Assembly: GCA_001783275.1 (NCBI GenBank)
Contig: MFRH01000090.1
Location: 1-42,219 of the forward strand
DNA length: 42,219 nucleotides
Origin: Candidatus Margulisbacteria bacterium GWF2_35_9
GTDB taxonomy: Bacteria > Margulisbacteria > Riflemargulisbacteria > GWF2-35-9
Direction: 5' to 3'
The notes under the pieces were generated by a model that did no database searches, was not told where the DNA came from, and saw nothing but the letters and a program-made list of their open reading frames with translations. Below, piece after piece: positions 27,225-36,920 of this stretch (the stretch's first letter is position 1; each line of letters begins with the position of its first letter). Made by a program: the position numbers and the translations under genes.

Positions 27225-27551
27225 CTAATCAATCAGCATTTCTTTTAATACAGCTTTTATTTTACTAATACATGTTCTATTAATAGCACCTAATGTTTTT
27301 GTAATTCTTCTTTTATCGATTGACCCTAACTGGTCTAAGGCAATCCAGCCTATCTTCTTCTGGAACTTAGTTCTTATTCTTGTTGGTATCTCTAAATGAT
27401 CTTTTGTCGTCATTGGTGCGATAATTATTGTGTGAGAAAACTCGTTCATCTCATCAGGCGAAAGTATTAAACAAGGACGCGTCTTCTTTATTTCTTTTCC
27501 AACTGTTGGATCAAGCTGAACAAGACACACGTCATATTGGCTTAATCCCAT
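27225..27551 (-). CDS. mazF: MazF/PemK-type mRNA interferase toxin
   Basis: A 108-residue type II toxin. The N-terminal strand region QYDVCLVQLDPTVGKEIKKT and RPCLILSPDEMN match MazF (usually G-D-x-V-x-x-x-x-x-P-x-x-G-x-E-x-x-x-x-R-P). IIIAPMTTK and IGWIALDQLGSIDKRRI hold the conserved core. It would cleave mRNA at short specific sequences. The start overlaps the end of mazE by ten bases. It lies convergently against the ppx 3' end with a 19-base gap. Confidence 0.93.
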   Translation of the reverse strand: MGLSQYDVCLVQLDPTVGKEIKKTRPCLILSPDEMNEFSHTIIIAPMTTKDHLEIPTRIRTKFQKKIGWIALDQLGSIDKRRITKTLGAINRTCISKIKAVLKEMLID

Positions 27552-27793
27552 TCCCAGTCCTCCATTTCAAGGTCAAGATTATCATCAATCAGCAAGGGAG
27601 CCGGATTTTTTTTGTATGCTTTCCTAAATGACTCCCCCCAACCTTCCCGTGGCTTACTCTGCATTGCCTTTATTCGAATTTCGTTATTCTCAATCTGAAG
27701 ATCAATATCATCTTTGATTCCACATTGTTCCAATAGCGCCTTCGGCAGTCGAATTCCTTTTGAATTTCCAATTGTGATTAAGCGTGATATCAT
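27542..27793 (-). CDS. mazE: MazE/AbrB-type antitoxin
   Basis: An 83-residue antitoxin with a swapped-hairpin AbrB DNA-binding domain (MISRLITIGNSKGIRLPKAL, LEQCGIKDDIDLQIENNEIR) and an acidic disordered tail (LLIDDNLDLEMEDWEWD) that would wrap the toxin. AAGGAGAATATA precedes ATG 27793. It binds the palindrome in its own promoter by analogy with the family. Confidence 0.92.
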   Translation of the reverse strand: MISRLITIGNSKGIRLPKALLEQCGIKDDIDLQIENNEIRIKAMQSKPREGWGESFRKAYKKNPAPLLIDDNLDLEMEDWEWD

Positions 27794-27811
27794 TATATTC
27801 TCCTTAACTTG

Positions 27812-27830
27812 TAATTACATTGTAATTATA
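27812..27830 (-). promoter_or_regulatory. mazEF promoter -10 and operator palindrome
   Basis: TAATTACA T TGTAATTA (27812-27828) is a perfect 8-1-8 inverted repeat. It overlaps an extended -10 box (minus strand TGGTATAAT; TATAAT at 27825-27830) and ends before the mazE RBS. The arrangement fits autoregulation by MazE or the MazEF complex. Confidence 0.75.
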
Positions 27831-27877
27831 CCACAAAAACGAAACACTAAACATTATGAGATTCTAATGTCGCAACC

Positions 27878-27934
27878 TTTCTAAACTTTATTATATGCGA
27901 TAAAGGATTACGATATGGCTTTCTGCTAGGTTAA
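27878..27934 (+). pseudogene. second ppx 3'-end fragment
   Basis: The frame FLNFIICDKGLRYGFLLG-stop repeats the C terminus of the upstream Ppx (SFIVCDKGLRYGLLLD-stop). Nucleotide differences fall mainly at third codon positions, so this is a diverged homologous end and not a recent duplication. It lies directly after the mazEF promoter, so mazEF sits between two ppx 3' ends. Confidence 0.75.
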
Positions 27935-27943
27935 TAGACGAAA

Positions 27944-28354
27944 TTACTCAATATTTTTAATCCAGTTTTCAACTTTTAGTTTATTCACTCTACTGAACTC
28001 TTTTTCGTTGTTTGTCACTACAGTGAATCCTTTTTCTAAGGCTTGAGCGGCTATCATTAAATCCAGTGCTCCAATAATATTCCCCTTTTTTTCTAATGAT
28101 GCTCTTACTTTCCCATACATGATAGCGTCATCATTATCATAGGGGATGATACTAAAAGGCGAAAGGAACTTATTCAGTGCATGAAAGTTTTTAATTCTAT
28201 TTTTACTCTTTTCAATACCGTAATACAACTCAGAAGTAGTGATTGATGAGATATATAAATCACCAATTTCGTATTTAACAAACTCATCGTAAACATGTTT
28301 AGGTTTTTTATTTATGATATATATGCAAATATTGGTATCCAGCAAGTAGCGCAT
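27944..28354 (-). CDS. vapC: VapC-type PIN-domain ribonuclease toxin
   Basis: A 136-residue PIN-domain toxin. Acidic active-site residues are in MRYLLDTNICIYII (Asp6), ISSITTSELYYGIEKSK (Glu), IIGALDLMIAAQALEKGFTV (Asp) and VTNNEKEFSRVNKLKVENW (Asn/Glu). This matches the VapC group that carries LDTNIxIY. It would cleave tRNA or other RNA. It begins one base after vapB ends. Confidence 0.95.
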   Translation of the reverse strand: MRYLLDTNICIYIINKKPKHVYDEFVKYEIGDLYISSITTSELYYGIEKSKNRIKNFHALNKFLSPFSIIPYDNDDAIMYGKVRASLEKKGNIIGALDLMIAAQALEKGFTVVTNNEKEFSRVNKLKVENWIKNIE

Positions 28355-28585
28355 TTAAAGGATATCCTCTCTTGTTTGGATATCTGGTTGAATTCTTTCA
28401 ATTTTTAAATCCTTATCAAATTCATCAAGCCCTTCTTGAAAGCTGCTCCAAGGGTTATTAGTCGGAATCAGTTTTACAATATTCCCAACTTTCTCAACGT
28501 AAACTTCGTTTCCACTAAACCGAAATTCTTTAGGCAATCTAACCGCTTGGCTCCTTCCGTTAGTAAATATTTTGGCTTTTTTCAT
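28355..28585 (-). CDS. vapB: VapB-type antitoxin
   Basis: I start at ATG 28585 ([18 protein letters not shown]), which has AAGGAG nine bases upstream; the listed start at 28636 reads through the promoter. The 76 residues have the AbrB-like swapped hairpin ([20 protein letters not shown]) and an acidic C-terminal tail that would bind VapC ([15 protein letters not shown]). An inverted repeat in front of it probably serves as its operator. Confidence 0.92.
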
Positions 28586-28600
28586 GTCAATCAACTCCTT

Positions 28601-28624
28601 GGTATATACCATATAATATATACC
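28601..28624. promoter_or_regulatory. vapBC operator-like inverted repeat
   Basis: GGTATATA and TATATACC are exact inverted arms separated by eight bases; the left arm is part of the smaller palindrome GGTATATACC. The repeat lies just upstream of the vapB RBS, where VapB-VapC complexes usually bind. No firm -35/-10 pair could be separated from the AT-rich palindrome. Confidence 0.6.
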
Positions 28625-28662
28625 ACTTTTAGTCAATTTTAAAGATGCCTTCTTATTAATCC

Positions 28663-29187
28663 TTAGGTTACGGGCTCTTCTTGGATGAAACCTATTCTTT
28701 TTGTATCCTTTGTTGGCGGTGCAAGTAATTGATCAATTACTTCCCAAACTACTTTAAGCTTATAATCATACTTCTGGTCAAGTTTGTTTATTTTTTCGAA
28801 TAATTCTTTATGACTAGCAATAATCTCTCTTAATTTAGTAAAAGTTCTCATTATTTGAATATTTATACATATGGCTCTTTCGCTGTTAAGTATTCCAGAT
28901 AGCATGGCCAATCCATTTTCAGTAAAGGCATATGGTATTCTTCTTAAACTCATTTTCTCTGAATTGGATATCACAATTTGTGACTTCCATTCATTAAACT
29001 CTGATTTGTTTAATTGGAACATAAAATCATCAGGAAAACGCTTGATGTTTCTTTTAACTGCTTGATTCAACACTCTAGTCTCAACTTGATATAATTCTGC
29101 CAGATCTTTATCTAACATAACCTTCGTATTTCTTATTAAATATATCCGATTAATGATTAATTCATTTGGAATGAGAAGTTCCTTCAT
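28663..29187 (-). CDS. ORF6N-domain protein
   Basis: A protein of about 174 residues from ATG 29187 ([20 protein letters not shown]). The ORF6N (KilA-N-related) domain covers about residues 10-95: [40 protein letters not shown], and [21 protein letters not shown]-terminal helical region ([20 protein letters not shown]) follows. ORF6N proteins are phage- and island-associated, presumed DNA-binding, of unknown role. RBS is weak. It is near toxin-antitoxin genes and could be a solitary phage remnant; length is typical and the frame intact. Confidence 0.88.
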
Positions 29188-29314
29188 CATGAGCACAATA
29201 ATATCATTCTACACAATTTACGTCAATTCTTTTTATTATCTCTTTTTGTACGTTATTTTGTTTTCTAGCGATTCAGAAAAATATTTTTTGTGTTTGGTCA
29301 TCGTAAGATTGCGT

Positions 29315-29458
29315 GTACTTTTTTGTTCCAAAAAGTACCAAAAACCAATTAAGGAATCCTTCCTTAATAATTCTGAACGCTCAAAACTCGCCCTCTCTCA
29401 TTTCATTCGTGAATGACTTAAGCATTGTGCTTCAACGGAATTTTATCATTGGAAAAAA
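29315..29458. repeat. 144-bp direct repeat, left copy
   Basis: It is identical to 30175-30318 except for about three substitutions, in the same orientation. Each copy contains two hairpins: GTACTTTTTT...AAAAAGTAC and TTAAGGA...TCCTTAA. Similarity extends weakly about 35 bp further upstream. The two copies enclose the DUF559 element. The ORF-track frames here (29153-29416, 29313-29621) are not supported as genes. Confidence 0.9.
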
Positions 29459-29523: not shown

Positions 29524-30070
29524 TTGCCCTCACCCAACGCTCAATCTGTAAAAAAGATAGTTCCGAACTTAACCTCTCCCTTCTGAAAACGGGAGAGGAG
29601 GAAGAATTTATAATGTTATAATGGATATATGTGCTATCACTCCGACTGACAAGAAATTTTTCTCAAGATTTCTCAGGCAAGAAGCAACTGAAGCAGAGAA
29701 AAAAGTGTGGGAATTGCTTCGAAACAGAAAATACCGTAAGATCAAATTTAGACGACAGCGTGTGGTTGGGGAATATATTATTGATTTCTATAGTTCAGAG
29801 TATAAGCTGGGAATCGAAATTGATGGAAGTATCCACAAAGAACGAAAAGAGTATGATGCTGATCGCCAACAAGAAATAGAATCCAGAGGAATCCAACTTA
29901 TACGAGTCACAAATAAAGAAATCTTCTCAAATATAAATATTCTTTATCAAAGAATTGACCAAGTATTTCAACAACTTAACAAACAAAGCAGCTACTCCTC
30001 TCCTGTTTCCTGAAATGGGAGAGGTCGTCACACAGCATGGAATCAAATATGGTTAATGGGGTGAGGGCAA
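29524..30070. mobile_element. 547-bp inverted-repeat element carrying a DUF559 endonuclease gene
   Basis: TTGCCCTCACCC (29524-29535) and its exact reverse complement GGGTGAGGGCAA (30059-30070) form 12-bp terminal inverted repeats. Just inside each end is a hairpin: CCTCTCCC...GGGAGAGG (29573-29598) and CCTCTCC...GGAGAGG (29997-30024). The DUF559 gene fills the middle. No target-site duplication is visible directly next to the ends. It may be moved by another transposase, or spread by its own endonuclease; both are inferences. Confidence 0.7.
29621..30013 (+). CDS. DUF559 (Vsr-like) endonuclease-domain protein
   Basis: A 130-residue single-domain protein. The PD-(D/E)XK-like core is visible: LRQEATEAEKKVWELLRNRK, KFRRQRVVGEYIIDFYSSEY (catalytic Asp in IIDF), LGIEIDGSIHKERKEYDADR (Glu and Asp-Gly-x-x-H), and GIQLIRVTNKEIFSNI. 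DUF559 is related to Vsr very-short-patch endonucleases; in-cell function is unknown. The start ATG 29621 overlaps a TAA (TAATG), and the nearest purine-rich RBS (GGAGGAAG) is about 20 bases upstream at the edge of a hairpin, so initiation may be unusual. Its last codons lie in the right hairpin of the element. Confidence 0.88.
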   Translation: MDICAITPTDKKFFSRFLRQEATEAEKKVWELLRNRKYRKIKFRRQRVVGEYIIDFYSSEYKLGIEIDGSIHKERKEYDADRQQEIESRGIQLIRVTNKEIFSNINILYQRIDQVFQQLNKQSSYSSPVS

Positions 30071-30174
30071 AAACTCGTCTTTTTAAATTTACTCCTTTAA
30101 GCTTACTTATCTATTTCTAGAATATAAGAAGAAATATTTTTTTGGTATTTTGAGGCGTCATGGAAAGATTACTT

Positions 30175-30318
30175 GTACTTTTTTATTCCAAAAAGTACCA
30201 AAAACCAATTAAGGAATCCTTCCTTAATAATTCTGAACGCACAAAACTCGCCCTCTCTTATTTCATTCGTGAATGACTTAAGCATTGTGCTTCAACGGAA
30301 TTTTATCATTGGAAAAAA
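30175..30318. repeat. 144-bp direct repeat, right copy
   Basis: It matches 29315-29458 with about three substitutions. It ends about 50 bases before the folC stop codon. The stretch 30071-30174 between the DUF559 element and this repeat has no recognisable gene. Confidence 0.9.
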
Positions 30319-36054: not shown

Positions 36055-36570
36055 ATGAAAAAAATATTAGTAATTCTTTTTACAAGCATCCTGTCTTTTA
36101 GCCAGCCCAATTATCTGTCTCCTGTGTTCTCCAATGTGTTCTCTTTTCCTAACAGCCAATGGGAATTTTCAATGGATAAATTAAAGTATGGAGTTGAAAT
36201 AGCCGGTTTTCTAAAAGGTACGACATGGATAGAATCACCCGTTATTATTTATAGCGAGCTTATTAATACTAATTACTATTTCGATCTTTTTAATACGATT
36301 ACTATTTCAAAGAAGACATCTCAGTTTAAAGACCTTTCTTATATGACACGAGATATTGAACTTCCAACGGATGTCCCCTACACTCTTAATTTTTGGGTGC
36401 TACCAAAAATCGTTTACGAGTACGTAGCCTATTTTAGTATTGATAAAAACCATATTGTTTCCATTGTCATCAGCAGTAAAGAAAAAAAATATATTGAAAA
36501 ATTTTATAACGACTACAAAATGATTCTGATAAACTTCTCGAAAACGATAAGTAGTTTACAAGAAGGTTGA
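36055..36570 (+). CDS. exported protein of unknown function
   Basis: I start at ATG 36055 (MKKILVILFTSILSFSQPN), which begins a good signal peptide and sits right after the promoter; the listed GTG start at 35998 lies upstream of that promoter. The 171-residue protein has alternating aromatic-rich strands (WEFSMDKLKYGVEIAGF, FDLFNTITISKKT, YEYVAYFSIDKNHIVSIVIS) and a final helix (KKYIEKFYNDYKMILINFS). I recognise no family. The strand-then-helix plan with a terminal helix is similar in style to the 34145 protein. It is convergent with rnpB, overlapping its 3' end by a few bases. Confidence 0.7.
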   Translation: MKKILVILFTSILSFSQPNYLSPVFSNVFSFPNSQWEFSMDKLKYGVEIAGFLKGTTWIESPVIIYSELINTNYYFDLFNTITISKKTSQFKDLSYMTRDIELPTDVPYTLNFWVLPKIVYEYVAYFSIDKNHIVSIVISSKEKKYIEKFYNDYKMILINFSKTISSLQEG

Positions 36571-36920
36571 TCCAATAAGCCGGGTTCTGTTATAAAGCAG
36601 TCATTTCTCTAGGCAGTCTGTTGCCAGCCTGCTCAAGCACTCTACCCGCCATTTATGACGGAGCGGACCACACCGTACTTCCTTGCGAAAGTTCACAGCC
36701 TATTTGAGTTTGCACCGCATAGAGTTTAGCCGTTTCAACCGGACTTAACCGGCTCGTCTCTGTTCCACTAGTCCTCACCTCACGATGGGCGGGCGTTACC
36801 CGCTATGCTGTCCTATGGTGCCCGGACTTTCCTCTCCCTCAACATGCTCGGGACAAGTTAAAAACTAATATCTTTAGCTTGTGCAGAGCAAGTCAAAGCA
36901 GCGACTGCTGGATCAACCTC
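36564..36920 (-). ncRNA. rnpB: RNase P RNA, bacterial type
   Basis: The minus strand contains GAGGAAAGTCCGGGCACCAT (the conserved P4-flanking 5' region) and, at the 3' end, ACAGAACCCGGCTTAT. The 5' terminus GAGGTTGATCC pairs with the 3' terminal GGATCAACC, giving helix P1 and fixing both ends to within a few bases. The length of about 357 bases is normal. It is the catalytic RNA that matures tRNA 5' ends. The 3' end meets the convergent gene ending at 36570. Confidence 0.95.

Follow-up and report, generated by a model that had tools for sequence, protein, structure and literature searches.

Palindromic repeats that survive in frame within protein-coding genes are known from Rickettsia, where they are called Rickettsia palindromic elements (RPEs), and to our knowledge these carry no gene. 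Another palindromic family, the BoxC/PIT/triplex motif (TM, TMECO), has been described as gene-less and of unknown origin, and no transposase or integrase lies near its E. coli copies (PMC4666352). The origin of the BoxC-type repeat has stood unexplained since the 1990s, and the literature offers no account of how it spreads. The DUF559 domain is contained in Caulobacter VsrA, for which a repair-type endonuclease role without genetic linkage to a methyltransferase has been described (PMC12907096). Within the open-licence literature, no paper linking DUF559 with palindromes was found.

We sought to characterize a DUF559 gene that lies between inverted BoxC-like palindromes. The window, meaning the whole stretch of DNA that was analysed (42,219 nt), is contig MFRH01000090.1 of Candidatus Margulisbacteria bacterium GWF2_35_9 (assembly GCA_001783275.1). 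A sequence-only reading had described a 547-bp unit with perfect 12-bp terminal inverted repeats (TIRs), CCTCTCC hairpins and one complete nuclease gene, and every one of these parts was confirmed at the following positions.

29524-30070: DUF559 unit, 547 bp, in the order TIR, hairpin, nuclease gene, hairpin, TIR
29524-29535, + strand: TTGCCCTCACCC, the left TIR, serving as outer block of a BoxC/triplex-type unit
29573-29598, + strand: left hairpin CCTCTCCC-TTCTGAAAAC-GGGAGAGG, separated from the left TIR by 37 bp (CCTCTCCC at 29573-29580, 10 nt between, GGGAGAGG at 29591-29598)
29621-30013, + strand: DUF559 (PF04480) endonuclease gene, intact, 130 aa
29997-30024, + strand: right hairpin CCTCTCC...GGAGAGG (arms 29997-30003 and 30018-30024)
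30059-30070, + strand: right terminal inverted repeat GGGTGAGGGCAA

The two TIRs, TTGCCCTCACCC and GGGTGAGGGCAA, are perfect inverted repeats of 12 bp, and the final codons of the DUF559 reading frame enter the right hairpin. Neither hairpin is followed by a T-run, and they are therefore unlike terminators; the unit had no Rfam match. An inverted repeat of 12 bp was reached in 22 of 5000 shuffles, which is moderately unlikely by chance, so that the single window locus is insufficient to decide. The decisive evidence that these repeats are not chance is the recurrence of palindromes at other DUF559 loci.

It was noted that the unit stands between two copies of a 189-bp direct repeat, which share 91% identity and contain a GTACTTTTTTGTTCCAAAAAGTAC palindrome, at 29275-29458 and 30130-30318, and that partial copies are present on contigs C88 and C75 of the same genome (G000). 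Its interpretation as a long target-site duplication was rejected, as there is a gap between it and the TIRs and it belongs to a dispersed repeat family distinct from the unit. Further upstream, two adjacent toxin-antitoxin-like pairs occupy 27225-28636, one consisting of PemK/MazF and a MazE-like partner and the other of a PIN-domain (VapC-like) toxin and a MazE-type antitoxin, and they are adjoined by an ORF6N gene (28663-29196). The window also contains a bacterial class A RNase P RNA (36560-36919, minus strand).

The three BoxC blocks are found in order at the left end of the window unit (CCCTCACCC, CCTCTCCC, GGGAGAGG) and in mirror order at the right. As a gene-less unit, CCCTCACC-N-CCTCTCC-loop-GGAGAGG matches the BoxC/PIT/triplex motif of PMC4666352, of which E. 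coli has 23 copies. The window unit is not compact, as a short-loop unit of about 37 nt fit for an intrastrand triplex would be: the spacers between outer block and hairpin are 37 and 34 bp, compared with at most 30 bp among relatives in its phylum by the search pattern used. Because such spacers exceed what the compact triplex fold allows, the window unit is described as a BoxC-like pair and not as a strict BoxC. The unit was detected in 12 of the 38 genomes of the phylum, with up to 21 copies, while a reversed control pattern gave no match. One gene-less locus (L214, genome G019) has a TIR and a hairpin at each end of a central spacer, reproducing the arrangement of the window unit except for the gene. 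Among 96 cyanobacterial genomes, up to 289 gene-less copies were counted in a single genome, and gene-less palindromes far outnumber DUF559 genes. At least three units were found in 31/48 cyanobacterial genomes with a strong DUF559 match compared to 14/48 without (p = 0.001), an association that is weaker among large genomes only (p = 0.06). Seven of the 96 genomes carry 10-59 triplex units and no strong DUF559 match, which counts against a spread by the nuclease.

The window protein matches PF04480/DUF559 over nearly the full domain (profile positions 4-107 of 109; E = 3e-30; 104.6 bits, above the curated cut-off of 20.6), and the family-invariant residues D55, E66, D68, G69, H72 and D79 are all present. 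Its AlphaFold2 model (pLDDT 85, pTM 0.76) was compared with known structures by Foldseek, and the better matches were a Neisseria gonorrhoeae DUF559 protein (PDB 3hrl; TMt 0.88) and the catalytic domain of I-Bth0305I (PDB 3r3p; TMt 0.77, E = 5e-5), the match to Vsr being weak (E = 0.03). Sequence profiles recovered the same two proteins (hmmsearch; 3hrl, E = 3e-26; 3r3p, E = 1.3e-6). In the alignment to the EDxHD active site of 3r3p, E66 falls on the E, and D68 and H72 do not fall on the D and H. Profile and modelled fold both relate the window DUF559 protein to the homing endonuclease I-Bth0305I. PADLOC made no defence-system assignment, and its match to methyl-directed restriction enzymes was weak.

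We next turn to DUF559 genes elsewhere, which were gathered by protein sequence only from 38 Margulisbacteria-like genomes of the window's phylum and at 80 loci from many phyla. A hairpin of one of three fixed types lay within 250 bp of the gene at 51/107 DUF559 loci (48%) compared to 4/338 control genes (1.2%; p = 5e-32), the controls being the other genes of the same loci and the DUF559 sample being tilted to the window's clade because the query alignment included several members with its hairpin type. The triplex-type unit alone was recorded at 49/107 DUF559 loci and 4/338 control genes, and hairpins upstream of DUF559 genes were stronger than those upstream of the controls drawn from these loci (p = 7e-18). 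The linkage is observed directly; the sequence-only reading had associated DUF559 genes in many genomes with such palindromes and called for conserved repeats around other members, and both were borne out. The absence of a recognised hairpin at about half of the DUF559 loci counts against a spread by the nuclease, as does its absence from most distant phage DUF559 proteins.

The hairpin class follows the DUF559 tree, within phyla as well. It changes 36 times on the tree, compared to 50.1 ± 2.3 changes when shuffled and 43.7 ± 2.2 when shuffled within phylum (0/300 shuffles reach 36 in either case), an agreement inflated because some tree neighbours are one inherited locus. Direct repeats 40 bp or longer with copies across the gene were found at 15/76 DUF559 genes compared to 0/220 controls, and would fit a repair-associated duplication.

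Several loci were noted for their individual context. At one (L011), the DUF559 element adjoins trpG and a 91-bp exact trpG duplication stands on either side, and at another (L015) DUF559 is fused in frame behind trpG. Two loci (L063, L087) carry DUF559 just downstream of the end of an FtsX/MacB-like permease gene, with that end duplicated beyond DUF559, and a similar permease gene end lies upstream of DUF559 at L116. A methylase-like reading frame of 2024 codons (L052) contains many in-frame tandem palindrome-encoded peptides (PHPPAPSPKALGEGE...) together with DUF559.

The DUF559 domain formed part of a long reading frame at 26 of the 80 loci. In-frame inserts were observed in MetH, RecG, LeuRS, HsdM, HsdS, riboflavin synthase (RibE) and a GT4 glycosyltransferase. 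Pfam showed DUF559 with host domains on both sides in MetH and the GT4 glycosyltransferase, and located it within riboflavin synthase and HsdM; the RecG and LeuRS hosts were identified by reading the sequences. The palindromic ends are translated as linkers, for example PSPLAPLPKGEG. Insertion sites recur: the MetH linker site in Flavobacterium, Polaribacter and Ignavibacterium, the RecG site in Polaribacter and Flavobacterium, the HsdM site across three phyla, and the riboflavin synthase site in two lineages.

The joined flanks of a Polaribacter metH insert were used as a query against 60 genomes of the genus. The gene was contiguous in approximately 52 of the 60 and occupied by DUF559 in two, with an interval of 61 nt when empty and of 487 and 466 nt when occupied. 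The inserts are accordingly 426 and 405 bp, each a multiple of three, and they start and end with palindromic repeats that the empty sites do not have. Empty sites with clear boundaries, which had been named earlier as a check, therefore exist for these metH inserts. Two other loci were rejected as clean empty-site cases, namely a Planktothrix methylase locus, where the gene was too patchy, and E. coli ycjD, considered below.

DUF559 domains were also found inside two inteins, at the position usually held by a homing endonuclease. One lies in a salicylyl-CoA-hydroxylase-like gene (L096, 3525-5597) and the other in a Planktothrix DNA methylase (L148, 1012-2331, minus strand), and both inteins contain palindromic repeats. 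In these inteins the DUF559 domain is probably the homing endonuclease.

The E. coli DUF559 gene, ycjD, is situated between sapF and fabI and was present in 3363/5426 complete E. coli genomes. Its 3' end enters a BoxC-like CCCTCTCCC, and a full unit then precedes fabI. It was unsuitable as an empty-site case since in examined strains without ycjD the eef efflux cluster takes its place (PMC12817139).

From these examinations, we lean towards reading the window unit as a homing-type mobile element, with a DUF559 nuclease gene between inverted BoxC/PIT/triplex palindromes and with the gene-less copies as its derivatives. A small EDxHD/Vsr-like (DUF559) endonuclease would nick or break DNA at a target, where a hairpin or triplex may serve as its substrate. 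Host repair or replication would then copy the element, palindromic ends included, into that break. The gene-less BoxC/TM repeats, which can number in the hundreds in one genome, would be non-autonomous derivatives mobilised in trans by the nuclease, a spread that would parallel that of REPINs moved by RAYTs, with the nuclease replacing the HUH transposase. Copies may survive in frame and unspliced in conserved genes because their ends are read through as linkers. The earlier suggestion of a Vsr-like nuclease that spreads its own palindromic flanks in homing fashion gains from the I-Bth0305I homology and the two inteins, whereas for the 547-bp unit itself neither an empty site nor a second copy in its own genome was found.

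We weighed three other explanations for the association. DUF559 might be a homing endonuclease that targets BoxC/TM palindromes already spread by other means, which would agree with the great excess of gene-less palindromes and with the genomes that have palindromes and no strong DUF559 match. Against this, palindromes are absent from the empty metH alleles and present at the insert ends of the occupied ones, and the hairpin class tracks the nuclease tree even within phyla; we regard a prior spread of the palindromes as unlikely. Stand-alone Vsr-like repair or restriction genes, with hairpins accumulating alongside as unrelated repeats or regulatory signals, would be in keeping with the unlinked, repair-type VsrA (PMC12907096) and the weak PADLOC match. 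Such genes are hard to reconcile with a 40-fold hairpin enrichment over neighbouring genes, with in-frame inserts bearing palindromic ends in unrelated genes, and with inteins and an occurrence at one site in only some genomes of a genus, and regulatory hairpins are opposed by the missing T-run in the window. This explanation is already disfavoured, and we judge it very unlikely.

A transposase acting in trans, of the RAYT/Y1 family or from an insertion sequence, could also move the palindromes with DUF559 as a passenger. The layout is like that of a REPtron or MITE, and in the window's phylum Y1/RAYT genes co-occur with triplex units (9/12 vs 7/26, p = 0.01) at least as strongly as DUF559, whose genome-level co-occurrence there was not significant (11/12 vs 16/26, p = 0.12). 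At the level of the locus, however, 0/40 Y1/RAYT genes had a triplex unit within 350 bp, and in unit-rich cyanobacterial genomes the motif was found at 13/20 DUF559 genes compared to 0/20 Y1/RAYT genes (p = 1e-5). The two gene families are told apart by local linkage, and RAYT was rejected as the palindrome partner on this linkage despite its genome-level co-occurrence. Y1 (RAYT-type) genes at five loci (L237, L241, L242, L244, L248) were seen to be flanked by REPs of their own (CCCCACA..TGTGGGG; GGAACCTGCGAAT..ATTCGCGGTTCC), palindromes different from the motif. The E. coli copies have no transposase or integrase nearby (PMC4666352), and no Y1 gene was found in the window's genome, where the unit is present. 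We consider mobilisation by a transposase quite unlikely.

Because genes of the family recur within BoxC-type repeats and in frame inside other genes, the DUF559 enzyme is the best candidate for the spreader of this repeat. A wider proposal, in which a Vsr-like nuclease without a transposase spreads palindromes genome-wide as gene-carrying, gene-less and in-frame unspliced copies, essential genes included, with YcjD as the BoxC agent in E. coli, is offered tentatively and falls a little short of probable. As laboratory strains of E. coli have ycjD, tying BoxC to DUF559 makes the spread of the repeat directly testable. If the proposal holds, a 'domain of unknown function' would become a homing-type nuclease family, and PSPLAPLPKGEG-like in-frame inserts of bacterial proteins would be explained.

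Compared with described systems, the element resembles REPIN-RAYT in that inverted palindromes enclose a chromosomal gene, that gene-less palindromes are numerous in the genome, and that gene and palindrome co-vary. It differs in that the gene between the window palindromes is DUF559, a PD-(D/E)XK-type nuclease, and not a Y1/HUH transposase (PF01797), and in that the RAYTs examined have other palindromes. An insertion sequence or MITE would call for a transposase and a short target duplication of constant length. The window unit has no transposase, the repeats that flank some DUF559 genes vary in length, and those in the window do not abut the unit. With RPEs it shares in-frame palindromes in coding genes, whereas DUF559 inserts carry a nuclease domain along. 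E. coli Vsr and Caulobacter VsrA belong to the same nuclease superfamily as DUF559, but Vsr is a mismatch-repair nickase and the window model is only weakly Vsr-like in fold. The EDxHD homing endonucleases (I-Bth0305I, 3r3p; review PMC3943268) match in sequence and fold, and like them DUF559 occurs in inteins and recurs at identical host-gene sites. Most DUF559 copies, however, have no surrounding intron or intein, the elements have palindromic ends and many gene-less derivatives, and the 130-aa window protein is without the extra DNA-binding regions of I-Bth0305I. The BoxC/TM repeats (PMC4666352) have the identical three blocks (CCCTCACC, CCTCTCC, GGAGAGG and complements), the same wide range (Enterobacteria, Cyanobacteria) and inverted pairs as in the window; their blocks lie a few bp apart compared to 34-37 bp here, and while they are without a nearby mobility gene, the window pair encloses a nuclease gene.
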